NCBI GenBank assembly: GCA_949297365.1
Contig: CASFSL010000023.1
Span: 1 to 46,152, forward strand
Source: an uncultured Bacteroidales bacterium
GTDB lineage: Bacteria > Bacteroidota > Bacteroidia > Bacteroidales > UBA932
Length of the DNA: 46,152 nt
Direction of reading: 5' to 3'
A program made the translations under genes and the position numbers. Shown piece by piece: positions 27,490 through 39,242 of this stretch. The notes beneath the pieces are model-generated. The model saw only the letters and a program-made list of their open reading frames with translations, was not told where the DNA came from and did not search any database. The stretch's first letter is position 1, and each line of letters opens with the position of its first letter.

Positions 27490-28071
27490 ATGGACTTGAA
27501 TTTTAATTTCAAAGAGATATTCAGCGCCTTCATGGTCCTGTTCGCAGTGATAGACATAACAGGCTCCACCCCTGTCATCATAGGCCTCAAGGACAAAGGC
27601 CTTAAGGTAGAAGCCGGAAAAGCCGCGCTGCTCTCATCTGTCATATTCCTGCTGTTCCTCTTCCTCGGAGACGCCATACTGTCCCTTTTCGGCGTGGACA
27701 TCCAGTCATTCGCCGTGGCAGGCTCGATCATCATCCTCATACTGGCCTGCGAGATGGTTCTGGACATCGAGATATTCAAGTACCAGGGACCCGGCGGCTC
27801 CGCCACCGTCGTGCCCATCATATTCCCGCTCATAGCCGGAGCAGGAGCCCTTACCACCGTCCTCTCCCTGAGAGCCGAGTACCACGTCGAGAACATAATA
27901 GTGGCGATACTGCTCAACATGGTCATAGTCTATTTCGTACTCAGATACCTCAACATAGCCGAACGAATCCTCGGCAAGGGCGGGGTCTACATCCTCCGCA
28001 AGTTCTTCGGCATCATCCTCCTGGCCATCGCCGTCAAGCTCTTCACCGCCAACATCACCTCCCTTTTCTAA
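27490..28071 (+). CDS. MarC-family membrane protein
   Basis: The 193-residue protein has six membrane segments. The start FKEIFSAFMVLFAVIDITGSTPVI and the later VVPIIFPLIAGAGALTTVLSL are the two MarC half-repeats. MarC proteins were once thought to be antibiotic exporters; the function is unproven. It is the last chromosomal gene before the integrated element. Confidence 0.88.
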   Translation: MDLNFNFKEIFSAFMVLFAVIDITGSTPVIIGLKDKGLKVEAGKAALLSSVIFLLFLFLGDAILSLFGVDIQSFAVAGSIIILILACEMVLDIEIFKYQGPGGSATVVPIIFPLIAGAGALTTVLSLRAEYHVENIIVAILLNMVIVYFVLRYLNIAERILGKGGVYILRKFFGIILLAIAVKLFTANITSLF

Positions 28072-28559
28072 TGCCGGTCCGATATTCAGTCAACCATTCT
28101 CAAATATGATTTTGACTGGACACATGCCCTACATGGAGGACATGAAAAAAGGCACCCGAAAGTGCCTTAATCAACTTATTCCGGCCCTACAACTATCTGT
28201 AATGTCGTTTTAGAGTCTAATATTCTTCCTCGTTGAAACTTTCTAATAATTAACATAATTTATTATAAATCATTAATTTATATTTTAAAATTTGCTTACT
28301 TTTACAATTTTAGTCAGTTAATTTTCTTATCCATTCCCTTATATTCCTATACATCAAAGTCTTAATATAATCCTTTAAATTAAAATGTAACACTTTTATG
28401 TCGGCTGCACCCACCGATACAAGATTAAGTTAACACACTTGGAGATTTGATACACTTTCATTGCCACGCTGATTTCCGATTGCACATTTTCACGAGGATT
28501 TCCCCTTGGATATCTTTTCATTAGACTCCTTAATGATGCAGTGGGAAGGGGTGTTGTTA
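28072..28559. other. Gene-free left boundary of the element
   Basis: This stretch holds a CAGTCAA/TTGACTG inverted repeat (28088-28118), the left attachment repeat (28121-28237) and about 320 bases of AT-rich DNA with no credible gene. The AT-rich part could serve replication or excision, but no recognisable iteron or nick site is seen. Confidence 0.6.
28121..28237. other. attL: left direct repeat of the integrated element
   Basis: The sequence matches 38338-38462 with scattered differences and one length change. The identical 20-bp core TAATATTCTTCCTCGTTGAA lies at 28218-28237. If crossover was in the core, everything to its left is the original chromosome downstream of DUF2795, including a stranded terminator hairpin (AAGGCAC/GTGCCTT, 28149-28168). 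Confidence 0.85.
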
Positions 28560-29432
28560 TCACAACCTGCCATTGCAAGCGATAATGTCCGGCCACGCCA
28601 ACTTTTTCCGCCCCTTTGTAAAACGCAGCACAGCGGAAAGGTGATAGTAGAACATGGCTGTCAGAAATTCTTGGTCATATACCATATCTATATCCTGCAC
28701 CCTATTCACCTTACGGCAATAATCCTGTATCTCCGCATTGTTCTGATGCACCTCCAACCTATACAACCTTTTGGGATTTCCGTAGAATTCTTGAATATAG
28801 TACTTATGCGATACAGCCTCTATCTCCTTACCTTTATTATATACCTGCACCGTCAGCCCCTTGGACTTATCTTGCCTGGCTCTCGCTTGCTTTATCAGCA
28901 ATGAGGCCCCTTTCAAACGCTGCAAACTAGCAGAGTAAATCAACTTCAGATTATCTATCTCAACAGTCCTGTCCTTTATAGCCTTACCATTGATGATTGT
29001 AGTTATATCCTCACGATGCCACAGTCTCCTTACCAGCCGCACAATATCTGTTTTGATATCCATTGCCAAATCTATGGCTGTAAAGTTATGAAAAACCATA
29101 CCCATCTGCTCAGGAACAGCCAGTACCCTTCTCAATAATGGTGGATTATACAATACATAATTCTCCACTCTAAAAAACGCGAAGTTCCTCTCCTGATTAT
29201 CTCCATAGATACCGACTCCCACGGTCATTACTTTCCCGAGACTATCACCATTTTCCATCAAGACACCGTAAGCATATCTGAAATGATGACTGGTTTCCCG
29301 ACAGAATATATAATCACCATATTTCCTTCTCATTCCGGGATTTATCGCCATTAAATCCCCCAGCACCTCCGCACCAGCCTCGTAACACAACTTCAGTGCA
29401 TCTATTATAACAGAACCTGTCTCATGGGGCAT
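28560..29432 (-). CDS. Replication initiator / MOBT-like relaxase (Rep_trans type)
   Basis: The 290-residue protein shows the order of motifs seen in Rep_trans proteins: a D-x3-D segment (AIDLAMDIK, D121 and D125), a Y-x-K-x2-E motif (VQVYNKGKE, Y198 to E203) and a later RLEV (225-228). Plasmid Rep proteins of the pT181 kind and the relaxases Orf20 of Tn916 and NicK of ICEBs1 belong to this group. It could nick the element's origin for replication or transfer. It is shorter than usual (around 330-400), mainly at the N-terminus. The family call is by motif reading. Confidence 0.6.
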   Translation of the reverse strand: MPHETGSVIIDALKLCYEAGAEVLGDLMAINPGMRRKYGDYIFCRETSHHFRYAYGVLMENGDSLGKVMTVGVGIYGDNQERNFAFFRVENYVLYNPPLLRRVLAVPEQMGMVFHNFTAIDLAMDIKTDIVRLVRRLWHREDITTIINGKAIKDRTVEIDNLKLIYSASLQRLKGASLLIKQARARQDKSKGLTVQVYNKGKEIEAVSHKYYIQEFYGNPKRLYRLEVHQNNAEIQDYCRKVNRVQDIDMVYDQEFLTAMFYYHLSAVLRFTKGRKKLAWPDIIACNGRL

Positions 29433-29490
29433 TTGATTTGAAGTTTTTGCCCGTTATTTCCATAGAAATTAGCTAACCTAACTTCCCTTT

Positions 29491-29522
29491 CAAATATATA
29501 GTCGTTTTTTCGCAAAACCAAA
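29491..29522 (-). promoter_or_regulatory. Promoter of the Rep-like gene
   Basis: TTTG (29522-29519) and TATATTTG (29498-29491) on the minus strand are 20 bases apart. The gene's ATG is about 60 bases downstream. Confidence 0.6.
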
Positions 29523-29530
29523 CACATAAA

Positions 29531-29561
29531 GAAAAATCCGCCGGGACATTCCCGATGGATT
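29531..29561 (-). terminator. Terminator of the serine recombinase operon
   Basis: AATCC and CGGG blocks (29535-29545) pair with CCCG and GGATT (29551-29561) around a 5-base loop. Read on the minus strand, a T-rich stretch follows (TTTTTC). It insulates the Rep-like gene from the operon upstream. Confidence 0.75.
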
Positions 29562-29585
29562 GCAAACAAAGTCATACCCTATATA

Positions 29586-30236
29586 CTATAAGTATATCTT
29601 TAGTCGTTGAAGCGTGCCGATACTGGTGCCCGTTATTTTACTCACATTCCTCAACGAGATTCCTTTGCGGAGCAAGGTGATTTCCTTCGCGTACTGCTCG
29701 CGGTATGCGTTCTCGGATTTCCTGTATGTTGAGGGACGGCCCAACGGATGATTGTCCTTGTCCGCTTTCCTCTTGTTGAGGTATTCCGCGTACCCCATCG
29801 CCATGCGGCTCCTAATCATGCCGCGTTCCATCTGAGCTATTTCCAGCAGGAGGGTGCAGATGAGATGGCAGGTGGGATTAACCTCTCCTTTGGCGTTAAG
29901 TGTCTCAATGCCGTAGTTGGCCAGATAAAGACATACTTTCTTTTCGTTCAGCAGCTCTATGACCTTCAAGGCCTCCAATGTTGAACGCCCCAGCCGGGAT
30001 ATCTCCGTACACAGAATTTTGTCCACCCTGTTGGCCTCCACAAATTCAAGCATCTCCACTATCTCTTCCCTGTCCTCGTTCTTCTTCGCTCCGCTGACCT
30101 TGTTGGCGAAGATTCGGACAACATCCCAATTCCTACTCTTGGCGATGTCTGTCAGCGTAGCAACCTGATAATCGTAGTCCTGCTTCAATGTACTCACCCG
30201 GCACAGCAGACAAACCTTAACTGTCTCCATACCCAT
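29586..30236 (-). CDS. Small serine recombinase (resolvase/invertase type)
   Basis: The 216-residue protein has the resolvase catalytic fold: nucleophile Ser15 in CRVST, conserved Arg residues in EISRLGRSTLEAL, and the E helix around MERGMIRSRM. A C-terminal helix-turn-helix (ITLLRKGISLRNVSKITG) binds DNA. It could resolve replication dimers or invert a segment; no paired crossover sites were identified. The start at 30236 (MGMETVKV) follows the previous stop by four bases, while ATG 30230 is also possible. It is the last gene of a three-gene operon. Confidence 0.88.
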   Translation of the reverse strand: MGMETVKVCLLCRVSTLKQDYDYQVATLTDIAKSRNWDVVRIFANKVSGAKKNEDREEIVEMLEFVEANRVDKILCTEISRLGRSTLEALKVIELLNEKKVCLYLANYGIETLNAKGEVNPTCHLICTLLLEIAQMERGMIRSRMAMGYAEYLNKRKADKDNHPLGRPSTYRKSENAYREQYAKEITLLRKGISLRNVSKITGTSIGTLQRLKIYL

Positions 30237-30240
30237 TGTT

Positions 30241-30573
30241 CTAATATACCGCCACAATGTTCTCCCAGCGGAAACTACGCCAGTTTCCCTTCTCCACATC
30301 AAAATAGGCTGTGGTACAGTAAAATTCGCGGCTGTCACCGTTGCCGTTGATGTGCTTCCGTGCAAGTGATTTGTTGGTGGTGCCCCACGCCTCCCTCAAC
30401 TCTCCGTTTTTCTTCTGATACACGAAGTGGGCCACTCCGCCCCTCATCTGTCGCTTCAACGACTCCACCATCATGGCCTTTGCCCCAGCCATAAACTCGC
30501 TGTCGGTTCTCTTCGCGATGACTGCCATCCTTGTGATGGTTTGATTGTCGGTTGTGATAATCATTGTGCTCAT
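30241..30573 (-). CDS. SH3-like beta-barrel protein (DUF2693/WYL_2 type)
   Basis: The 110-residue protein has the DUF2693 pattern: GGVAHFVYQKKNGELREAWGT, a middle EFYCTTAYFDVEK and the ending GNWRSFRWENIVAV. Such proteins are common on Bacteroidetes conjugative and phage-like elements and have a small beta-barrel fold, with unknown ligand. ATG 30573 was chosen; the frame upstream overlaps the 89-residue gene. Confidence 0.8.
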   Translation of the reverse strand: MSTMIITTDNQTITRMAVIAKRTDSEFMAGAKAMMVESLKRQMRGGVAHFVYQKKNGELREAWGTTNKSLARKHINGNGDSREFYCTTAYFDVEKGNWRSFRWENIVAVY

Positions 30574-30604
30574 ATTCCTATGTTTAAATTGTTCATCCGT
30601 CTTA

Positions 30605-30874
30605 TTACGCAGCAAGGACGGCCATATACTCTTTGCGCTGTTCAGACACATTGATATTGTGTCCGCTGATGATGCTGCTTGTCTCCTCATATCGCAGCGT
30701 CCACAGACCGCGCAGTGCCCTTCTGACATCCTCATCATCAATGGTGTTTACGAGGCTGACGAAACTTCTCATGCCTGCCTTCGCACTGTCGTATCTCCAC
30801 TCATCGGCCATGCTCCAAAACCAATCAAAACTGTCTATCATTTTCAATGCTTTCTGTATCTTGTCCTGTGCCAT
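30605..30874 (-). CDS. Hypothetical protein of mobile-element type
   Basis: The 89-residue protein (MAQDKIQKALKMIDSFDWFW start, WTLRYEETSSIIS middle) has no domain I know. It is helical in composition. It heads the operon with the DUF2693 protein and the serine recombinase and is driven by a clear promoter at 30898-30929. Confidence 0.65.
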   Translation of the reverse strand: MAQDKIQKALKMIDSFDWFWSMADEWRYDSAKAGMRSFVSLVNTIDDEDVRRALRGLWTLRYEETSSIISGHNINVSEQRKEYMAVLAA

Positions 30875-30897
30875 ATCCTCTTTCTTTATTTGTATTG

Positions 30898-30929
30898 CAA
30901 AGATAATATTTATAGATTACTTATGCAAA
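30898..30929 (-). promoter_or_regulatory. Promoter of the recombinase operon
   Basis: TTTG (30929-30926), 20 bases, then TATCTTTG (30905-30898) on the minus strand. It is divergent from the regulator gene's promoter, so the Cro/CI-like regulator may bind the 127-base gap. Confidence 0.7.
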
Positions 30930-30970
30930 TTTTTGTAATACTATTTTATCTGTTTTTAATAATTTTAGAA

Positions 30971-30978
30971 TATATTTG
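30971..30978 (+). promoter_or_regulatory. -7 box of the regulator-methylase operon
   Basis: TATATTTG precedes the ATG at 31002 by 23 bases. A TCTG at 30949-30952 is a partial -33 element. Confidence 0.6.
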
Positions 30979-31001
30979 CATTACTTATAATTTAACTGTA
31001 T

Positions 31002-31310
31002 ATGGATGTACCTGAAAAGACTTATTTTGAGCAACATGCAGAGGAACTTCTGGGTAACGCAGGACTCAACAAGGCGAAATTCTCGGAGGCCATGGGGATT
31101 GCAAGACAGAATGTTTTGAAACTGTTTGAGACAAAGAATGTGCTGACACTCATTAAGGCAGCCGACATCCTCAAAGTACCCCTCTCCACCCTGATATATG
31201 GCAACCAATCCATAGATGGACACACAATAGATGGCTTTATAGATGTGGATGGGAAAATATTTAGAGTACGCAGCAAAAAGGACCTTGAAAATATCCTCTA
31301 CGCATTGTAA
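31002..31310 (+). CDS. Cro/CI-type helix-turn-helix regulator
   Basis: The 102-residue protein has an XRE-like helix-turn-helix (LNKAKFSEAMGIARQNVLKLFE, then LIKAADILKVPLSTLIYG) and a C-terminal small beta-hairpin region (IDVDGKIFRVRSKKDLENIL). This layout is common in Bacteroidetes mobile elements. It probably controls the divergent promoters at 30898-30978. The methylase gene follows two bases after its stop. Confidence 0.82.
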   Translation: MDVPEKTYFEQHAEELLGNAGLNKAKFSEAMGIARQNVLKLFETKNVLTLIKAADILKVPLSTLIYGNQSIDGHTIDGFIDVDGKIFRVRSKKDLENILYAL

Positions 31311-31312
31311 CC

Positions 31313-32173
31313 ATGAGTAAGAAGGTTGACAGCTATAAATATAATCCGTCACTATCTGTTGCTAAAAATGCCAAAAACAATGGTGTCAGTAAAGAAAACA
31401 TCCGCTATTATATTAAGACACGTAATATTAACAGGCGGCTTGAAGCTAAGATTAACATAGCTGAGGATATTCGCAAATTTATAAAAGTCCACCCGGATGC
31501 CGCAAAAACAGAGATAGCACGCTGCACAGGGTACAGTATCAACACTGTTAAAAAGTACTGGACTATTGTTGTCGGTAACGCCAATTTAGAACAATCAAAA
31601 ATTGGTGAAAAAATCGCCAAAAAAAGACTGCGAGAATATCACAACTTCTACGCCACTCACCCGAGCTGTATCTGCGACATTCTGAGGGTTGAGACATTCA
31701 ATCATTTTGTACTGGAACCGTTCTGCGGCATCGGAAGCATCTCAGAAGTACTGAAAGAATATGGGTACGAGGTTGAGAGCTATGACATCATTGACCGTGG
31801 TTACGGCAAGATTGGGGACTTCTTTGAAGTGGATTTTGAGGAGAACAGGTACGACATCCTTACCAATCCGCCATATACAGAAAATCTCACAGATATTATA
31901 AATCGGTGTATATCGCTGTGCCATAGCAAAGTGGCCCTGCTTATGCCGCTGCGGTATCTGTCAGGACTTGAAAGATTCAAAAGCATATATCAAATTCATC
32001 CTCCGGCAAGGGTCTATGTATATATGGAGCGTATCTGCATCGCACGAAACGCTGACTTTGAAAAATACAACGACCCGGGAGCCAACCGGGAAATTTATGC
32101 GTGGTATATATGGCAAAAAGACTATACCGGGGCCACGGAACTTCATTGGATACACAACGACAGGACAAGATAG
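31313..32173 (+). CDS. Orphan adenine-specific DNA methyltransferase with N-terminal HTH
   Basis: The 286-residue protein has methyltransferase motif I in EPFCGIGSISEV and the N6-adenine motif IV TNPPY. Before these lies a helix-turn-helix-like region (KTEIARCTGYSINTVKKYW). No restriction gene is adjacent, so it may act as a solitary methylase that marks the element, guards it from host restriction or controls replication. It is co-transcribed with the regulator. The target site is unknown. Confidence 0.75.
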   Translation: MSKKVDSYKYNPSLSVAKNAKNNGVSKENIRYYIKTRNINRRLEAKINIAEDIRKFIKVHPDAAKTEIARCTGYSINTVKKYWTIVVGNANLEQSKIGEKIAKKRLREYHNFYATHPSCICDILRVETFNHFVLEPFCGIGSISEVLKEYGYEVESYDIIDRGYGKIGDFFEVDFEENRYDILTNPPYTENLTDIINRCISLCHSKVALLMPLRYLSGLERFKSIYQIHPPARVYVYMERICIARNADFEKYNDPGANREIYAWYIWQKDYTGATELHWIHNDRTR

Positions 32174-32552
32174 TAGCTTTCGGCTGATTTAATTCTAATT
32201 TTGTAGGTCAATACCTCAAAATGAGTGCTCTCCGTTAACGGGAAATAACTATCTTTGCAGTGCCGGATTGTCCGGCATTACATACGGAAGTGTTTTCGTT
32301 ATGTCCTTTATAGAAAATGTGGTAGTTTTCAATGTGAGAGGACAGCGGACAGCACTCATTCTTGTGTAGGCTATGCGGTCAGGGTGTCTATTACCCTGCA
32401 ATACCTCATATCTATACGAGTGTGGGGTATTGGGTCTCGTTTATTCTCACAGGGTTCTACCACAACCTTCTATAAGGTAAACGGAATCGGCCTCACACTT
32501 TCTTTTTATGCAAACTCTTCCCCGGGGCCCGGAAGGCTTAAACTTCAATAAT
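32174..32552. other. Gene-free interval holding a structured RNA candidate
   Basis: The 379 bases between the methylase and the membrane operon have no credible gene. Nearly all of the middle part is taken up by inverted repeats (32220-32483), and a weak CTTCC/GGAAG hairpin (32516-32535) lies before the next ATG. Confidence 0.7.
32220..32490 (+). ncRNA. Candidate structured RNA with kissing loops, upstream of the membrane operon
   Basis: A -7 box TATCTTTG (32250-32257) would start a transcript near 32261. Hairpins in order: TGCCGGA/TCCGGCA (32261-32277); ACATA with CGGAA (32280-32289) against TTTTCG and TTATGT (32293-32304); GAAAA/TTTTC (32313-32330) with loop TGTGGTAG; CAGGGT/ACCCTG (32380-32398); CAATACC/GGTATTG, extended by wobble pairs (32399-32432); and CGTTTA/TAAACG (32438-32483). 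The TGTGGTAG loop is exactly complementary to CTACCACA (32457-32464), which itself lies in a small GGTT/AACC loop. A 15-base outer repeat (32220-32234, 32346-32360, one mismatch) encloses the first half. It could be a regulatory leader, an independent RNA, or a DNA origin. Confidence 0.5.
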
Positions 32553-33059
32553 ATGTGTAGAACATTGACAGCACGCGAGTTTATTCAGGAAACTCTAATG
32601 AAAGAATTTGCAGACATCGTGAACGGGGAAAAGGAGCACAATTACATTTCCTTCCTGCTCATTTCCTGCGGAATTGAATTTTTAGGGAAATGCATGGCTC
32701 CCGTTGGTACGGATTGGCATCGTAGAGCAAGTGAGCAATATTTTAAACAGGGGATATCCCTATTTCCTGACCCATATAAACAACAAGACATCGATGATGT
32801 ACTATACCATGGATTAAGATGTGGCATTTGCCATGCATTATTACCTAAAGATGAACTGATTGTATCATCAACTGAAGAACAAGATTTGAACAGCAACCCT
32901 ATTCGCTTGAACATCCGCACCCTTTTTGATGATTTCAAGAAAGCCTGCACGTCTTTGCTGGAAAATGAAAAGTATAATGCTAGACTTGAAGAAAATTTCA
33001 TTAGTATCTCAGACGGCTCTACGGGGAACACAAATTCATTAAAAGTAGAAAACGAATAG
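32553..33059 (+). CDS. Unknown protein with R-x4-H (HEPN-like) motif
   Basis: The 168-residue protein is largely helical by composition and matches no family I can name. Residues 89-94 read RCGICH, an Arg, four residues, then His, as in the catalytic R-x4-6-H motif of HEPN RNases, and it sits after a predicted helix (DIDDVLYHGL). The second position is Cys instead of the usual Asn, Asp or His. The start at 32553 (MCRTLTAREF) fits better than the upstream ATG at 32508, which lies in AT/GC-mixed leader sequence. Its stop is two bases before the zinc-ribbon gene. An RNase function is only a guess. Confidence 0.6.
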   Translation: MCRTLTAREFIQETLMKEFADIVNGEKEHNYISFLLISCGIEFLGKCMAPVGTDWHRRASEQYFKQGISLFPDPYKQQDIDDVLYHGLRCGICHALLPKDELIVSSTEEQDLNSNPIRLNIRTLFDDFKKACTSLLENEKYNARLEENFISISDGSTGNTNSLKVENE

Positions 33060-33061
33060 CT

Positions 33062-33781
33062 ATGGCCACAACTGTCACATCCAAATGTCCGCATTGCGGA
33101 GCCCAAATAGTCTTTGAGCCAAAGTCCAAAGCCACGATATGCAGGTATTGCTCATCAATGATTGCCATCAAAGAAGTAAAAGGCTCAGACGGCCCTTCAT
33201 TATCCGGGTTGCTTGGCAATTTCCAACTAAAAGAGATTATCCCCAAATATGAATATTGGGGAAGGTATGTACAATCACCTGAAACAGATGTTACTGGTAT
33301 TACGGGATACTTATGTATTTCTGATGAGGAGGTTATATTCAAACCAGACAAGCTTGACTTCTTGGAAAACGGGCTCCTCAAATCTATTGATGATACATAC
33401 ATACGGTTTGACGAGATATGCGGATACCGCTACAATACTTACTACTTTTCATTTGTGGCTCCAAAGACATATTACCATGTTATATGCACAGATGATGGTG
33501 AGACGAAAAAAGAGCATATAATCTTCATAGCGAGTCTGGCTAAAGAACGGAACAGCATATTCAACAATATTGAGTATTTCAGAAAACAGTTTTTCATCAG
33601 AAACGGCAAGGATGTACCGGAATTAACAGAAGGTGACATCCATGTGTCAGGAAACAATATAATTGATACACGGGGTGCAAAATATATTTATTTGGCCCAT
33701 AAAATAATTGTTAGCCGTATTATGATAGGGCTAATAGCTGCAATTATTCTCATATTAATTATAGTATTATTATCCGCATAG
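33062..33781 (+). CDS. Zinc-ribbon membrane protein
   Basis: The 239-residue protein starts with a zinc ribbon (C9-x2-C12 and C27-x2-C30, KCPHCG and CRYC), then a middle domain of about 150 residues with beta-rich stretches (GYLCISDEEVIFKPD, IRFDEICGYRYNTYYFSFV) that looks like a PH/GRAM-type fold, and ends in one membrane segment (about 216-237). It would be tail-anchored with the ribbon in the cytoplasm. In the Bacillus ydjFGHI operon an SPFH protein also travels with a zinc-ribbon protein. The GRAM call is inference. Confidence 0.7.
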   Translation: MATTVTSKCPHCGAQIVFEPKSKATICRYCSSMIAIKEVKGSDGPSLSGLLGNFQLKEIIPKYEYWGRYVQSPETDVTGITGYLCISDEEVIFKPDKLDFLENGLLKSIDDTYIRFDEICGYRYNTYYFSFVAPKTYYHVICTDDGETKKEHIIFIASLAKERNSIFNNIEYFRKQFFIRNGKDVPELTEGDIHVSGNNIIDTRGAKYIYLAHKIIVSRIMIGLIAAIILILIIVLLSA

Positions 33782-33783
33782 AT

Positions 33784-35163
33784 ATGGGACTCTTTTCAAA
33801 AGGCAAGACAGGCGGCATGATGAATGTCATCCGCTGCGACGAGAAGGAATACCTCGTCTGGAAATGGAGGCCCGAGGGTCAGGAGCTCGGTGCCAGCAAG
33901 AGAGAGAACGGCATCCGATACGGAAGCAGCCTGAGGGTAAAGGACGGAGAAGTCGCCATCCTCGTCTACACCACCAAGGAGAACGAGGACTGTCAGGAGG
34001 TCATAGTCGGCCCGCAGGACAAGATTATAAACACCGCGAATTTCCCCGTACTGGCCGACATCGTAGGGCTCGGCTACGGAGGAGACACGCCGTTTCAGGC
34101 CGAGGTCTATTTCATCAACCTGTCGGAGAATGTTCAGATTCTGTTCGGTGTCCCGTACTTTGATGTGTTTGACCCCCGTTTCCCTGATTTTCCCGTTCCT
34201 GTGGCGGTAAGGGGCACCATAACATTCAACATCTCCGACTACAGTGCATTCATCAAGAACAACAGGCTGATTAATTTTGAGATAAAGGACTTCAAGCAGC
34301 AGATTAGGAGTGCCGTGATGAAATACACGAAGAGCATCGTCATGAGCCTGCCTGCCTCACGCAACATCCCGGTAGTCCAGCTTGAAAGTCAGATACTTCA
34401 GGTTAACGATGCACTTGAATCGTATCTCAGGCCCAGGTTTGAGAAGGACTTCGGAGTATGCATGAAGGCACTTGACATTGAGGCCGTTGAAATCAACAAG
34501 GACAGCGAGACCTACAAAGAACTGAAGAGAGTGACCAAGGATATCGCGTCAGAGACCGTAATCGCTCAGTCCGATGTGAACATTCAGAACCTCCGGGACT
34601 CACAGCGCATCATGTCCGAGAACATGGAGGAGTCCCTGCGCATCCAGCGGGAGGAGGCCCAGCGTGCGCAGCGTCTCAAAACAGAGACATCGTACATCGG
34701 GGCCCATGCTCTGAACAGACAGGCGGATGTGATGCAGGCGGCAGCTGAATCCCTGGGCAAGATAGGAGGGACGATGGGAGACGGCTCCGGCAATGACGGA
34801 TTCAACCCGGCAGGTATGATGACGGGGATGATGATGGGAGGCGCAATCGGCAGTCAGATGGCCGGATACATGAACCAGATGGGGCAGAACCTGAATGCCT
34901 TTGCCCAACAGAATATGCAGGCTCCGCCTCCGACACCTAAGCCAGTCTCTTATTATGTACTGATAGACAATCAGCAGTCCGGCCCCTTTGACGAGAATGT
35001 ACTCAGACAGATGGCATCCTCAGGACAACTCTCAGAAGACACCTATGTATGGAAGCAGGGAATGGCGCAGTGGATGCAGGCCAGAGACACTGAACTCAAT
35101 AAGCTGTTTGCGTCCGTTCCGCCCGTGCCTCCTCCGTTTCCACCCATACCGCCAACCAAATGA
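33784..35163 (+). CDS. SPFH (YdjI/COG4260-like) protein with C-terminal GYF_2 domain
   Basis: The 459-residue protein starts MGLFSKGKTGGMM, then YLVWKWRPEGQELG and SSLRVKDGEVAILV, the opening of the COG4260 ('virion core protein') SPFH branch. FQAEVYFINLSENVQILFG and FPVPVAVRGTITF follow. Residues about 250-310 are a charged coiled coil, 320-375 is a Gly/Met-rich linker, and residues about 390-435 form a GYF_2 (DUF4339) domain (GPFDENVL, YVWKQGMAQWM) before a Pro-rich tail (PPVPPPFPPIPP). SPFH proteins scaffold membrane microdomains; GYF domains bind Pro-rich peptides, so the tail could bind its own or the neighbouring GYF_2 domain. It overlaps the next gene by ATGA. Confidence 0.85.
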   Translation: MGLFSKGKTGGMMNVIRCDEKEYLVWKWRPEGQELGASKRENGIRYGSSLRVKDGEVAILVYTTKENEDCQEVIVGPQDKIINTANFPVLADIVGLGYGGDTPFQAEVYFINLSENVQILFGVPYFDVFDPRFPDFPVPVAVRGTITFNISDYSAFIKNNRLINFEIKDFKQQIRSAVMKYTKSIVMSLPASRNIPVVQLESQILQVNDALESYLRPRFEKDFGVCMKALDIEAVEINKDSETYKELKRVTKDIASETVIAQSDVNIQNLRDSQRIMSENMEESLRIQREEAQRAQRLKTETSYIGAHALNRQADVMQAAAESLGKIGGTMGDGSGNDGFNPAGMMTGMMMGGAIGSQMAGYMNQMGQNLNAFAQQNMQAPPPTPKPVSYYVLIDNQQSGPFDENVLRQMASSGQLSEDTYVWKQGMAQWMQARDTELNKLFASVPPVPPPFPPIPPTK

Positions 35164-35525
35164 CACATGAAGCCATGAACAGTGATTTTTCTATTATTGA
35201 CAAACTTGTAGCTTTCGGCATAGAGGCGGCATCGGCAGACGGCATGGTATCCGGCATGAACAGGATGCTGTCCGACATGCAGGTTCCCGGCTCAATGGCC
35301 CGGAATCAATCGCCCGGCCATAACAGAGTGAACAGATTATGGTATGTGGCAACAGACGGCAGGCCCAACGGCCCTTTTGACGAGAAGGAGCTGCTGGCCT
35401 TTCTGCTTGACAGGAGAATCAACAAGGACACCCTTGCGTGGTCTGCGGGAATGCCGCAGTGGCAGCGCGTTGAGGACATTCCTGAGATTCTGAGACTATT
35501 AATGCTTTTACCTCCAGAGTTATGA
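35160..35525 (+). CDS. Free-standing GYF_2 (DUF4339) protein
   Basis: The 121-residue protein has a polar N-terminal stretch (DKLVAFGIEAASADGM) and a C-terminal GYF_2 domain at about residues 60-111 (LWYVATDGRPNGPFDEKEL, LAWSAGMPQW). This domain is clearly related to the one at the end of the SPFH protein. Start and stop overlap both neighbours by ATGA, so translation is coupled. It may compete for, or bridge, the Pro-rich tail of the SPFH protein (inference). Confidence 0.83.
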   Translation: MTHEAMNSDFSIIDKLVAFGIEAASADGMVSGMNRMLSDMQVPGSMARNQSPGHNRVNRLWYVATDGRPNGPFDEKELLAFLLDRRINKDTLAWSAGMPQWQRVEDIPEILRLLMLLPPEL

Positions 35526-35872
35526 AGATTCAGCCTATATTGACAGTTTTCTCCATTGCCATCTCCGCGCTTTTCGGATACATTGTGTATTCCATATGCG
35601 GTGACAGTTATGCGGACACGCAGCTTCTGACCATCCTGAGCGCGGCATCGGCCTTCCTGATATTGTTCAGCGGAATCGGATTGAAATACGGCAATCCGAA
35701 ATCCAACACCAACATAAAAGTCCTGTCCGCAGTATTCACCGTCATCTCATTCGTCGCAAGCCTCGTAATGTCCTTTGTGTCGGCAGGAGAGGCCGCGATA
35801 ATAATAGTCTCTGCCGCTATTGTACTCATCTATCTGCTCATCCTCTACTTAATACCCAAATCCGGCATATAG
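35522..35872 (+). CDS. Small four-helix membrane protein
   Basis: The 116-residue protein has four hydrophobic segments (about 4-25, 34-52, 63-88 and 91-112). No family is recognised. It ends the membrane operon and could be the partner that anchors the GYF_2 or SPFH protein. Confidence 0.7.
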   Translation: MKIQPILTVFSIAISALFGYIVYSICGDSYADTQLLTILSAASAFLILFSGIGLKYGNPKSNTNIKVLSAVFTVISFVASLVMSFVSAGEAAIIIVSAAIVLIYLLILYLIPKSGI

Positions 35873-35929
35873 AAACAAGACTATGGAAAGCATCCTGAAA
35901 ACCAGCCAGAGCCCCTGACTGGTTTTTAT

Positions 35930-36145
35930 TTACTGTTCAGTCAAGGCACTATCGTCGCGGTACTGTCCATCGCCATTTGTAGCTTTGGGGATTTTGCTCC
36001 AGTATCCGCCAGTCTCGGCCCGGAGGGCATCGCTGATATGCTTGCAGTGCTCCGGGGTTTTCTTCCGTCCCAGGAGAGATGCTGAAATCTTGTCGCGCAC
36101 CGCCTGCGGCACTTCGCGTGTCTTTCGCTTGTATTCTTTTTCCAT
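35930..36145 (-). CDS. NUMOD3-like small protein
   Basis: The 71-residue protein reads REVPQAVRDKISASLLGRKK followed by TPEHCKHISDALR, the repeated ISxSLxGRxxTPEHxxxIS pattern of NUMOD3 DNA-binding modules, which usually flank GIY-YIG or HNH homing nucleases. Here no nuclease domain is attached; a short tail ending GGYWSKIPKA follows. It is convergent with the membrane operon. Confidence 0.6.
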   Translation of the reverse strand: MEKEYKRKTREVPQAVRDKISASLLGRKKTPEHCKHISDALRAETGGYWSKIPKATNGDGQYRDDSALTEQ

Positions 36146-36659
36146 GATTTTAGTTTTTTCATAAATAGCTTAACAGGTTAGAAAGGCTATCCGATTTTGG
36201 TAATGCATTTACCAATTTTTGATAGTCCCATGTATCGGTAAAATCCTAATGACAGACAGTCCGCCTAATAAGCCTATCAGGTAGAGCCGAGCATTTCTAA
36301 GGAGGATAACAGATTACGAATTTACAATAACAGCCCGGAGGTCGGGATTCCCACACCAAACAGCTGTTTATGGCCATAAAATAATGACTGAACAAGGTAA
36401 AACAACCATATTACAGCACGACAACAGACCTACACATTCTTAATTATCAGTTAATTACATAGCAAACCTCTCATATTGGGATTCATTTTATTATCAAATA
36501 ATACTTAATGGCACTGACATAGATTTTGCGCTCAATTTCTTCTTGTTTTTTTAAATCCAACTTGATATATTTGCCATAAGTATGCTCACGCTACGAAGGT
36601 GGGCGCGGTCATTACCGCAAGAATAACCCTAAAAAAAGGGACGACAATCAACCGTTAAC
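36146..36659. other. Gene-free interval before the excisionase-like gene
   Basis: No gene is seen in these 514 bases. There is a promoter at 36543-36573, a short hairpin CCCT/AGGG near 36628-36641 and AT-rich DNA. The region could hold arm-type sites for the integrase and excisionase, but no repeats were clear enough to call. Confidence 0.55.
36543..36573 (+). promoter_or_regulatory. Promoter of the excisionase-like gene
   Basis: TTG (36543-36545), 20 bases, then TATATTTG (36566-36573). The ATG follows at 36660, leaving a leader of about 80 bases. Confidence 0.6.
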
Positions 36660-36926
36660 ATGACGGAAGATACTGTAAAAAACATTGTTGAGAGCATCAC
36701 CGCCAACATCATAAATGCCATGAACCTCAACAAGCCTGTTTATACGCGAAACGAGACTCTACAACTACTGGGACTTGACAGCAAGACACTGAAACGCTAC
36801 CAGGACGAGGGACTTATAGGATATTCGCAGCCGATAGACGGAGGTAAGGTGTTCTTCTCACGACAGGACATTGACGAATTCCTGAACAGGACACACCACG
36901 AAGCCTTTTACTTCAACGGATTGTAG
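36660..36926 (+). CDS. Helix-turn-helix (excisionase-like) protein
   Basis: The 88-residue protein has a winged-helix/MerR-like motif (YTRNETLQLLGLDSKTLKRYQDEGL, then GGKVFFSRQDIDEFL). This is the pattern of small Bacteroidetes excisionase-type proteins that steer integrases. Its 3' end overlaps the convergent integrase gene by 19 bases, so transcription of one would oppose the other. Confidence 0.78.
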   Translation: MTEDTVKNIVESITANIINAMNLNKPVYTRNETLQLLGLDSKTLKRYQDEGLIGYSQPIDGGKVFFSRQDIDEFLNRTHHEAFYFNGL

Positions 36927-38260
36927 TCCTCAAACTGTAACTTTCTCTCAACCTCCTCACTAAGCGTTTCCGGGAGAAACATGGCATAATTCTTCTCGGT
37001 CGCTGTAACAGAGCTATGGCCGAGAAGACGGGATACAAGATGCAAGGACATGTTAATCGGAGGGTTGAGGGCATACACTGCGAAAGTATGCCGTGCGACA
37101 TGCATGGTCAGATTAAAACCCTCAACTCCGATTTTCAAGCCTATAGCTCTAAGCGACTGCCCAATAGTCCTGTTCTTAGAGGCTATTTTCATTTTCAATT
37201 CCCGGTCACACTGTTCCTGATTGGATTTGTCCGAAAACTTAAAGTCCACTGGAAGTAAGTTGAATACAAAGCGAGGATTATAGCCTTTATCCTGCCACCT
37301 ATGCAATATCTGAATGGCAGCACTGTTAAGGTGTATCTCATGAAAGTTCTTGGCCTTGACCAGCATTTTCCTCATTGTTGAATTCGCGAAGTCAATGTGC
37401 GCCCATTCCAATGTCGCAATATCACTGACACGCAGACCACAAGCATGGAAAGCGAAGAGAAACATGTCCATTATCTCCCGGGTACGGTCATACTTGACCT
37501 CAGAGTACAACGCCACAAATCTTGCCATCTGCTCCCTGGTCAAATAATGCACGGAGCTTTCGTTATCCTCAACCTCCCCGGTATACGACCGTTGCTTTTT
37601 CTCAACATAGCCATTCCGGGAGACATTCAGCATATTAGTGTTCATAAGGCCATTCTGCACAGCATATTCTATAGCCTTAAACAGTGGAGTTAACTCCTTA
37701 TTCATCGTCTCATTGCCAATACTCTTCATTCGGCTGACTTTATAAGCATCCATCAACTCCACTGTTACTTCCGGCATAGGCAGGAAAGCCTCCTTCTTAA
37801 CATCTGCTATGTAGTTCTTAAACTTTTCTATATAAAGTCCATGATTGTAGTACGTGGAGTAACCGACCTTTCCCGTATCAAACCTCACTCGGTTATAGTC
37901 TACGGCATACTGAATAAAGTCAACTTTTTTCGGGTCTTTCTGTTCATCATTGAGGTTCCCGTCCAATAATCTTGACAACCGTTCCTTTGTTAATGGGCCT
38001 TCGTAGGCTTCAATTACCGATTCATAACTTCTTTTGATTACTGCCAATTTGTTATTCAGCCGATTCGCCTCTTTATGACCTACGATTTCTTGCTTATCGG
38101 AATCCCACTGTTCAGGCTTAACATAAACTCCTGTAGCACGGCATACCACATCTCTGTTTACTGAAAACATGATACTAATAGCAACCTCACCTTTTATGTT
38201 CGGTTTCCTATTTCTGATGACCAACCTACCTTTTGGTTTTAATCGTTTTACTCTGCCCAT
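36908..38260 (-). CDS. Tyrosine-type integrase of the element
   Basis: The 450-residue protein has an N-terminal arm-binding-like domain (VYVKPEQWDSDKQEI), a SAM-like core-binding domain (about 110-215) and the catalytic domain. Catalytic residues are Arg277 (CGLRVSD), a Lys near 302-304 (LVKAKN), His387 and Arg390 (HVARHTF), His415 (LLGHSSVTAT) and the nucleophile Tyr425. It is the Bacteroidetes phage_int_SAM_5/Arm_DNA-bind type. It lies beside attR, as expected for the gene that made the insertion. Confidence 0.93.
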   Translation of the reverse strand: MGRVKRLKPKGRLVIRNRKPNIKGEVAISIMFSVNRDVVCRATGVYVKPEQWDSDKQEIVGHKEANRLNNKLAVIKRSYESVIEAYEGPLTKERLSRLLDGNLNDEQKDPKKVDFIQYAVDYNRVRFDTGKVGYSTYYNHGLYIEKFKNYIADVKKEAFLPMPEVTVELMDAYKVSRMKSIGNETMNKELTPLFKAIEYAVQNGLMNTNMLNVSRNGYVEKKQRSYTGEVEDNESSVHYLTREQMARFVALYSEVKYDRTREIMDMFLFAFHACGLRVSDIATLEWAHIDFANSTMRKMLVKAKNFHEIHLNSAAIQILHRWQDKGYNPRFVFNLLPVDFKFSDKSNQEQCDRELKMKIASKNRTIGQSLRAIGLKIGVEGFNLTMHVARHTFAVYALNPPINMSLHLVSRLLGHSSVTATEKNYAMFLPETLSEEVERKLQFEDYNPLK

Positions 38261-38337
38261 ATACTATAAAACTTACTATGATTTTTAACGGGAATTATGG
38301 GCAAATATAGTCAGTTATTAGTCAACTTATTCTCCGG

Positions 38338-38462
38338 CACATGCCCTACAGTGCCTTCTGACGGGCATGAAAAAAGGCACCCGAAAGTGCCTTAGTCAAC
38401 TTATTTAGGCCCTACAGCCACCTGTAATGCCGTTTTAGGGATTAATATTCTTCCTCGTTGAA
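38338..38462. other. attR: right direct repeat overlapping the DUF2795 3' end
   Basis: This 125-base copy pairs with 28121-28237. The shared core is at 38443-38462 and encodes the last residues of DUF2795 (the stop is 38442-38444). To the left of the core the sequence belongs to the element and supplies a replacement terminator (38374-38393). Confidence 0.85.
38368..38393 (-). terminator. Terminator of DUF2795 carried by the element
   Basis: AAGGCAC (38374-38380) and GTGCCTT (38387-38393) form a 7-pair stem with a 6-base loop; on the minus strand it is followed by TTTTTTC. The same hairpin stands in attL. Confidence 0.88.
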
Positions 38463-38663
38463 GAAGAAGTCCTCCTTGCTGGGATAGTCGGGCCAGATCT
38501 CCTCTATGCTTTCGTAGACCTCACCGTCATCCTCAAGGTCTTCCAGATTCTCAATGACCTCCAGAGGGGCGCCTGAGCGGGTAGCGTAGTCTATCAGTTC
38601 GTCTTTGGTTGCGGGCCAGGGAGCGTCTTCGAGCTTCGAGGCCAATTCAAGTGTCCAATACAT
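38442..38663 (-). CDS. DUF2795 small acidic protein, integration target
   Basis: The 73-residue protein (MYWTLELASKLEDAPWPATK start, then ELIDYATRSGAPLEVIENL) has the short helical DUF2795 module. The acidic tail ends FFFNEEEY. It is of unknown function and is widely conserved in Bacteroidetes. Its last seven codons lie in the att core, so insertion leaves the protein unchanged. Stop codon is TAA here; the attL copy would give TAG. Confidence 0.85.
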   Translation of the reverse strand: MYWTLELASKLEDAPWPATKDELIDYATRSGAPLEVIENLEDLEDDGEVYESIEEIWPDYPSKEDFFFNEEEY

Positions 38664-38711
38664 AGTCTCAATGCATTTTTATTTTGGTCGGCAAAGATAT
38701 ACAAAAATCCT

Positions 38712-39242
38712 CTAGTCAATCCAAAAATCTTCCGAAATGTTATGCCGGTGACACTCCATGCGTCCCAGCGTGAACAGATAGTCCGACAAGCGGTTGAGGT
38801 AGCGCAGCACCGCCACCATATCGGGCCGGTCGTCTCCCAGTGCGACGCATGAACGCTCGCTCCTGCGGCAGATGCACCGCGCCACATGACAGTGGGCGGC
38901 ACTGACCGGACGCGACGGCAGCACAAAACTCTTCATGGGAGGCATCTCCCCGCTCATCCTGTCTATCTCCTTCTCCAGATTCTGGATTCCGTCTTCCGGG
39001 AACGGAGTCAGCCTGGGATTCTCCACATCGGAGGCGACATGGGCAGATGCCGTCATAAGCGCAGCCTGTATCTGTCTCAGTACCGCGTCCTCCGTCTCTA
39101 TATGGCAGCGCAGCAGGGCGATATACGATATCAGCTCGTCCAGATCCCCGTATGCGCAGACTCTCTCAGATGCCTTGGAGACCCGTCTACCCCCGACGAG
39201 GGATGTCTCACCGGCGTCTCCTGTCTTAGTGTAAATCTTCAT
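38712..39242 (-). CDS. PduO-type cobalamin adenosyltransferase
   Basis: The 176-residue enzyme adenosylates cob(I)alamin using ATP. The N-terminal MKIYTKTGDAGETSLVGG and the later helix motifs (YGDLDEL, CRRSERSC, YLNRLSDYLF) are characteristic. It lies seven bases downstream of the ABC ATPase gene. With a possible B12-type importer in the window, corrinoid use is plausible, but no other B12 gene is near. Confidence 0.92.
   Translation of the reverse strand: MKIYTKTGDAGETSLVGGRRVSKASERVCAYGDLDELISYIALLRCHIETEDAVLRQIQAALMTASAHVASDVENPRLTPFPEDGIQNLEKEIDRMSGEMPPMKSFVLPSRPVSAAHCHVARCICRRSERSCVALGDDRPDMVAVLRYLNRLSDYLFTLGRMECHRHNISEDFWID

Follow-up and report, generated by a model that had tools for sequence, protein, structure and literature searches.

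Gene content of the locus

Positions 32553-35872 of the window, by which we mean the whole stretch of 46,152 nucleotides analyzed here (uncultured Bacteroidales bacterium, GenBank assembly GCA_949297365.1, contig CASFSL010000023.1, positions 1 to 46,152), hold five closely packed genes, A to E (Table 1). This operon is a real, mobile and variant SPFH-GYF_2 membrane module that probably builds a membrane-bound protein scaffold. An initial annotation, made from the DNA letters alone, had recognized the five genes, and the open reading frame (ORF) coordinates bear this out: all lie on the forward strand, with 2-base gaps between A and B and between B and C, and 4-base overlaps between C and D and between D and E. 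The ORF listed for gene A has an in-frame start further upstream, at 32508. The products named in that annotation, an R-x4-H protein, an SPFH protein with GYF_2, a second GYF_2 protein and a four-helix protein, are confirmed by alignment, Pfam and hydrophobic segments. Its description of an operon that combines SPFH, zinc-ribbon and GYF_2 proteins, is associated with the membrane and lies on an integrative element next to a methylase is supported, the last gene being methylase-like.

Gene C encodes the central protein of the operon. Pfam places Band_7_1 at residues 40-242 (E 6.6e-21, 75.4 bits against a curated cut-off of 24) and GYF_2 at residues 390-435 (E 1e-18, 67.3 bits against 25.8), and the protein belongs by both matches to the SPFH/Band-7 superfamily and the GYF_2 family. 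The D protein has its own GYF_2 domain at residues 61-109 (E 1.2e-16, 60.6 bits, same cut-off), and at one related locus (L108; L and G numbers denote loci and genomes) the D region is found in the same ORF as C. Proline-rich segments are the ligands of GYF domains, and therefore the GYF_2 domains of C and D would be expected to bind the tails of C. The proline-rich tail pointed out in the initial annotation is conserved in the family: 81 of 86 C proteins have a proline-rich motif after GYF_2, placed in their last 30 residues, and 79 of the 86 have one before it. The recurrence of such a tail beside GYF_2 suggests self-assembly. At L006 (L159) a natural domain swap is seen, in that zinc ribbons stand in for GYF_2 at the end of an SPFH protein belonging to this family; the D gene of this locus has six CxxC motifs. 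The E protein has four hydrophobic segments, no Pfam family, and a weak SLATT-type match in PADLOC (E 0.0028).

The zinc ribbon of the B protein consists of two CxxC pairs within residues 8-34 and is below threshold in Pfam (best E 0.0031). The structure model predicts a C-terminal helix at residues 203-238, with a predicted local distance difference test score (pLDDT) of about 97 over the last ~19 residues, and has no confidence in the middle of the protein. A PH-like middle domain was considered by eye and set aside, the model lacking confidence in that region. Beyond the zinc ribbon, no relatives of B were found in viral contigs, plasmids or the 148 related genomes searched; the genome_contigs collection was not searched for B.

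In the A protein, R89 and H94 (R-x4-H) are invariant in 24 of 24 aligned sequences, as are E42, G45, L70, Y75 and D127. The alignment comprises the window sequence and 23 of the 26 other matches, with L133, L137 and L138 left out of the 27. The R-x4-6-H motif that marks HEPN proteins is present, and it is on this motif that we call A HEPN-like.

Table 1. Positions of the operon genes and of the parts of the element that carries them
Feature	Position	Strand	Remarks
Gene A, HEPN-like (by motif) protein, invariant R89-x4-H94	32553..33059	+	168 aa; no Pfam family
Gene B, N-terminal zinc ribbon, C-terminal membrane anchor	33062..33781	+	239 aa
Gene C, SPFH (Band_7_1), helical and Met/Gly-rich region, Pro-rich linker, GYF_2, Pro-rich tail	33784..35163	+	459 aa
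Gene D, N-terminal region and GYF_2, related to C-terminal part of C	35160..35525	+	121 aa
Gene E, small protein, four hydrophobic (membrane) segments	35522..35872	+	116 aa
Left direct repeat of element	28138..28237	.	100 nt, 89% identical to 38363-38462
Right direct repeat	38363..38462	.	overlaps 3′ end of 73-aa gene 38442-38663 (-)
Serine recombinase (resolvase/invertase)	29586..30365	-	PF00239 5.5e-28; phrog_125 7.8e-31
Cro/C1-like helix-turn-helix regulator	31002..31310	+	weak helix-turn-helix matches: Pfam E 0.07, PHROG E 0.0009
Phage-type DNA methyltransferase-like protein, NPPY motif (by eye)	31313..32173	+	phrog_799 1.8e-45
Helix-turn-helix (excisionase-like) protein	36660..36926	+	88 aa; ORF, assigned by eye alone
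Tyrosine integrase, arm-binding and SAM-like domains	36908..38260	-	PF00589 9.5e-16, PF17293 2.2e-9, PF13102 2.4e-6

The element and its attachment site

The operon is the main cargo of a 10.2-kb element of the tyrosine-recombinase type. Two direct repeats enclose a gene for a 290-aa protein, the serine recombinase, the likely helix-turn-helix regulator, the methyltransferase-like gene, genes A to E, the small helix-turn-helix-like gene and the integrase. In a congener (G015) the site is empty, with the flanks contiguous, a single copy of the repeat and no element, so that an integrase, flanking repeats and an empty site are all in evidence. The guanine-plus-cytosine content is 0.40-0.45 in 1-kb windows of 28-34 kb and 36-38 kb, 0.50-0.53 in the part holding most of C, D and E, and 0.50-0.61 over most of the remaining window. 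The methyltransferase-like protein gave no Pfam methylase match above the cut-off. The 290-aa protein (28560-29432) has no match in Pfam, PADLOC or NCBIfam, and its PHROG matches are insignificant. A gap of ~380 bp (32174-32552) lies 5′ of gene A and includes a long leader; it has no Rfam match, and no Rfam family was found anywhere in 27500-39000 of the window. Near 32252, upstream of A, stands TATCTTTG, which we take to be a Bacteroidetes -7-like motif.

Within the genus, the 3′ end of the 73-aa gene has served repeatedly for integration, by more than one element. In G010 the site is adjoined by an integrase 37% identical to that of the window (L184), and in G014 by a DUF1016-like nuclease assigned by eye (L185). 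In G012, genes for RloB (E 7.0e-44) and a KAP NTPase (E 2.8e-41) lie 7-9 kb from the site (L186), together with further genes that by eye are Qat-, RloA- and Dnd-like; defence genes therefore stand beside the attachment site in at least one congener. Some congeners have no element there, since in G003 and G002 the genes that come immediately after the site are MarC-like and arginine-biosynthesis-like, respectively (by eye).

Distribution and composition of the gene core

C, D and E recur together as a gene core that is widespread and patchy and in most cases comes with a zinc-ribbon partner. The close C family (E ≤ 1e-60) is present in 2 of 395 genomes sampled from the phylum and in 6 of 393 sampled from the order, the window's own genome included in both counts; at E ≤ 0.001, matches to C appear in 32 of 148 relatives, many of them through distant SPFH or GYF_2 proteins only. 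For comparison of gene neighborhoods we took the best 80 of 316 stretches confirmed in a scan of genome_contigs (three of which, L036, L037 and L040, are near-identical). These C loci come from Bacteroidota, Bacillota, Actinomycetota, one Spirochaetota and one genome labelled Pseudomonadota, and some are unplaced. Neighbors were labelled D, E, T or Z with profiles built from the C loci themselves, where T is a gene with, by eye, a TerB-like start and a zinc ribbon, and Z, labelled in 21 loci, has two zinc ribbons in most.

Near C, 77 of the 80 loci have a T or Z gene, 63 have D and 59 have E. D and E occur together near C in 55 of the 80 (50 with T as well), and the arrangement is therefore not due to chance. 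The company of Z varies: in Bacillota and Gardnerella it is found without D or E, in Olsenella and Collinsella with D and without E, and in the spirochaete with both D and E, as in two Prevotella loci where the Z label is weak. The window locus has neither a T nor a Z label; gene B occupies that position and is matched by neither profile.

The window's own genome contains a second locus with T, C, D and E (L150). A recent duplication was rejected as its source, because the two C proteins are only 58% identical and the window C falls elsewhere in a quick tree, in which its placement is weakly supported. Nor is the operon commonly phage-borne: in pattern scans of viral contigs, none of A, B and C had a confirmed relative, and the sole match for C in the phage collection is an unannotated scaffold marked UNVERIFIED that carries a Z gene and C. 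Plasmid carriage of a full-length C was likewise rejected, since none of the seven plasmid records covers 80% of it.

Gene A has a distribution of its own. Among 393 genomes of the order, 26 besides that of the window have a relative, and no relative of B to E was found within ~1.5 kb of these homologues. When 20 of the A loci were widened (285 kb, some ending at contig ends), the C, D, E, T and Z profiles gave no match, and the A profile in turn had no match in any of the 80 C loci. The idea of a conserved five-gene unit, which the initial annotation had proposed, is thus rejected: within the collections searched, the complete set was found in this element alone. Of the two outcomes that the annotation had named as contrary to it, separation of the five genes was seen for A and B, and confinement to core genomes with no linkage to elements or defence genes was not.

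Accessory genes

T lies upstream of C in 49 loci, and in 6 of these the two are separated by an unlabelled gene of 150 aa or more. T has a membrane segment at all six of these loci, as compared with 22 of the 43 others (Fisher p 0.03). One of the six inserted genes encodes a PDDEXK_4 nuclease (L053) and another a DUF2971 protein (L066). For the remaining four, Pfam gave no family above the cut-off, and two of these are nuclease-like by eye.

To look more widely, we assembled 65 accessory genes lying in the same-strand runs of the C loci, dropping L037, L040 and genes shorter than 120 aa, and a control set of 65 distal genes, none shorter than 150 aa (taken from the top of a shuffled list of 85, itself drawn from 140). 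Among the best 25 of 36 Pfam families, the accessory genes include PDDEXK_4 (three genes), LEM-3 GIY-YIG (two), DUF2971 (two) and DUF4062 (one), and in PADLOC they include PDC-S26 (three genes, at L048, L053 and L068), PD-T4-3 (two) and PDC-S31 (two, at L061 and L066). The two PD-T4-3 members are presumably the GIY-YIG genes of L050 (5500-6222) and L091 (3056-3757), which are close relatives (4e-100) found on opposite sides of the core. Only at L053 and L066 does a gene matching a defence model lie between T and C; the match at L061 lies several genes downstream. In the distal control, nuclease families and PADLOC families alike have one member at most, as judged from the best 25 of 93 and the best 25 of 45 families, respectively. 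The PD-T4-3, PDC-S26 and PDC-S31 models had no match among the five window proteins.

One further C-family locus, L155 (G253), lies among Schlafen/AlbA, DUF262 and DUF4238-like genes recognized by eye, and this region is possibly a defence island.

Function and alternative explanations

We favor, at roughly even chances, a membrane-anchored SPFH-GYF_2 scaffold with swappable accessory proteins, of which the window operon would be a mobile copy of a widespread, patchy module. The SPFH domains of C would oligomerise on the inner face of the membrane, where four-helix E together with tail-anchored, zinc-ribbon B would keep the assembly in place. Through their GYF_2 domains, C and D would bind the proline-rich segments that flank C's own GYF_2, cross-linking a larger array on which accessory proteins could be docked or by which they could be controlled. 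The accessory proteins would be exchanged between loci. In this element the accessory protein would most likely be HEPN-like A, which may act on RNA once membrane or phage stress disturbs the array.

The gene content described above makes a part in stress or virus defence plausible. The initial annotation had found a defence or membrane-stress role attractive, and here some linkage did emerge, from the nucleases near C and the RloB and KAP genes of G012, which is suggestive and does not establish the role. The boldest form of the proposal is an undescribed modular conflict platform, spread by mobile elements, in which an SPFH-GYF_2 array with a zinc-ribbon adaptor would sense membrane damage and unleash a swappable effector of the PD-(D/E)XK, GIY-YIG, DUF2971 or HEPN-like kind; taken as a whole, this seems to us rather unlikely.

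Several observations weigh against the scaffold with swappable accessory proteins and its link to defence. As regards the attachment site, the far end of the G012 island and an integrase for it were not located, and RloB is also found away from the site, once more in G012 and in three places in G014. Many C loci have no nuclease, and some accessory genes are of an envelope type (DUF6175 and DUF6591, two each by Pfam among the 65). Single genes of the control set also match defence models (REase_I, mads, kinase-type PD-T4-6 and others), and therefore overall match rates do not separate the two sets. For gene A, Pfam gave no HEPN match and no match of note on the 24 members, the PDB sequence search returned no relative, and the single-sequence structure model, with a pLDDT of 38.8, is unusable. 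Several A homologues adjoin genes of housekeeping appearance, by eye. Within the searches made, A and B accompany C in this window only, and so it is operon position that ties A to the scaffold.

Some of these points are shared by a tentative alternative, which deserves serious weight without being the one we would choose: that the module is a PspA-independent envelope-stress scaffold that stabilises membrane regions and has no part in defence, the nearby nucleases being bystanders in an accessory region. The many loci consisting of T, C, D and E alone would fit such a function, as would DUF6175 and other secreted-looking genes in some operons, the defence-model matches of the control genes, and the membrane stress network that YdjI, YdjG and YdjH form in Bacillus subtilis according to PMC8581546. 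The patchy distribution and the carriage on a mobile element are less readily explained by it, however, and the same goes for the unrelated genes, a PDDEXK_4 nuclease among them, that are tightly inserted between T and C. It is somewhat unlikely that A is instead an independent RNase-type toxin or accessory gene that shares only a promoter with its neighbors, B to E working alone; the A relatives in 26 other genomes of the order and the 20 widened A loci, none with a C, D, E, T or Z match, speak for this independence, whereas the gap between A and B is only 2 bases, and accessory genes recur around C elsewhere. That the operon works on behalf of its own element, for instance as an anchor, as protection or as a means of excluding rival elements, is improbable: the operon is indeed the main cargo and adjoins the methylase-like gene and the recombinases, yet T, C, D and E are also found elsewhere in the same genome (L150), at a place where inspection by eye showed no recombinase.

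Proteins of the SPFH type are of ancient origin and organise membranes, and what they do in bacteria is poorly understood. If the scaffold with swappable accessory proteins is real, a mobile, patchily distributed SPFH-GYF_2 module with nucleases among its accessory genes would link membrane scaffolding to phage defence, and would offer a compact system for testing how SPFH arrays sense membrane damage.

Comparison with known systems

In the literature searched, with preprints and most subscription papers outside its scope, no account was found that unites SPFH, GYF, zinc ribbon and PspA, or SPFH, anti-phage and defense island, and among the titles listed for SPFH with GYF or HEPN, for DUF4339 and for TerB/SPFH/GYF, none resembled this operon. 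Individual parts do have relatives. A Bacteroides SPFH protein encoded beside pgeF/obgE (L160) likewise has a zinc-ribbon gene nearby and is 27% identical over 71% of C; its other neighbors differ, and the locus is not a T-C-D-E operon. The Myxococcus gliding protein GltJ (AglX) also carries a zinc ribbon. Of the solved structures, its PDB chain 7z3c comes nearest to the GYF region (E 7.6e-6), and the GltJ model of NCBIfam matches C at residues 371-449 (3.3e-6; 26.5 bits against a 450-bit cut-off), a likeness confined to the GYF region.

The closest parallel to the operon as a whole is pspA-ydjGHI (ydjFGHI) of B. subtilis, in which an SPFH protein is likewise co-encoded with zinc-ribbon and membrane proteins. 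According to PMC8581546, YdjG and YdjH are membrane proteins that recruit YdjI, the SPFH protein, and PspA; PMC11237479 gives the SPFH protein a C-terminal zinc ribbon and YdjG two zinc ribbons. The initial annotation had been reminded of this system, and the pairing of SPFH with a zinc ribbon stands, although the likeness is loose. PspA is part of the Bacillus system, whereas PspA_IM30 had no match in the host genome, which is 95% complete so that a miss is possible (the same search found matches in 9 of 14 known genomes). YdjH has a TPM domain, and Pfam found no TPM match in any of the five window proteins. B has one zinc-ribbon region where YdjG has two, and C has GYF_2 where the B. subtilis SPFH protein has its C-terminal zinc ribbon. 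Counterparts of D and E are not described for the B. subtilis system in the available parts of the two papers. A bridge between the two arrangements is provided by L006, where zinc ribbons follow the SPFH domain instead of GYF_2. The window operon plausibly works in a manner like that of pspA-ydjGHI, yet is not a member of that system.

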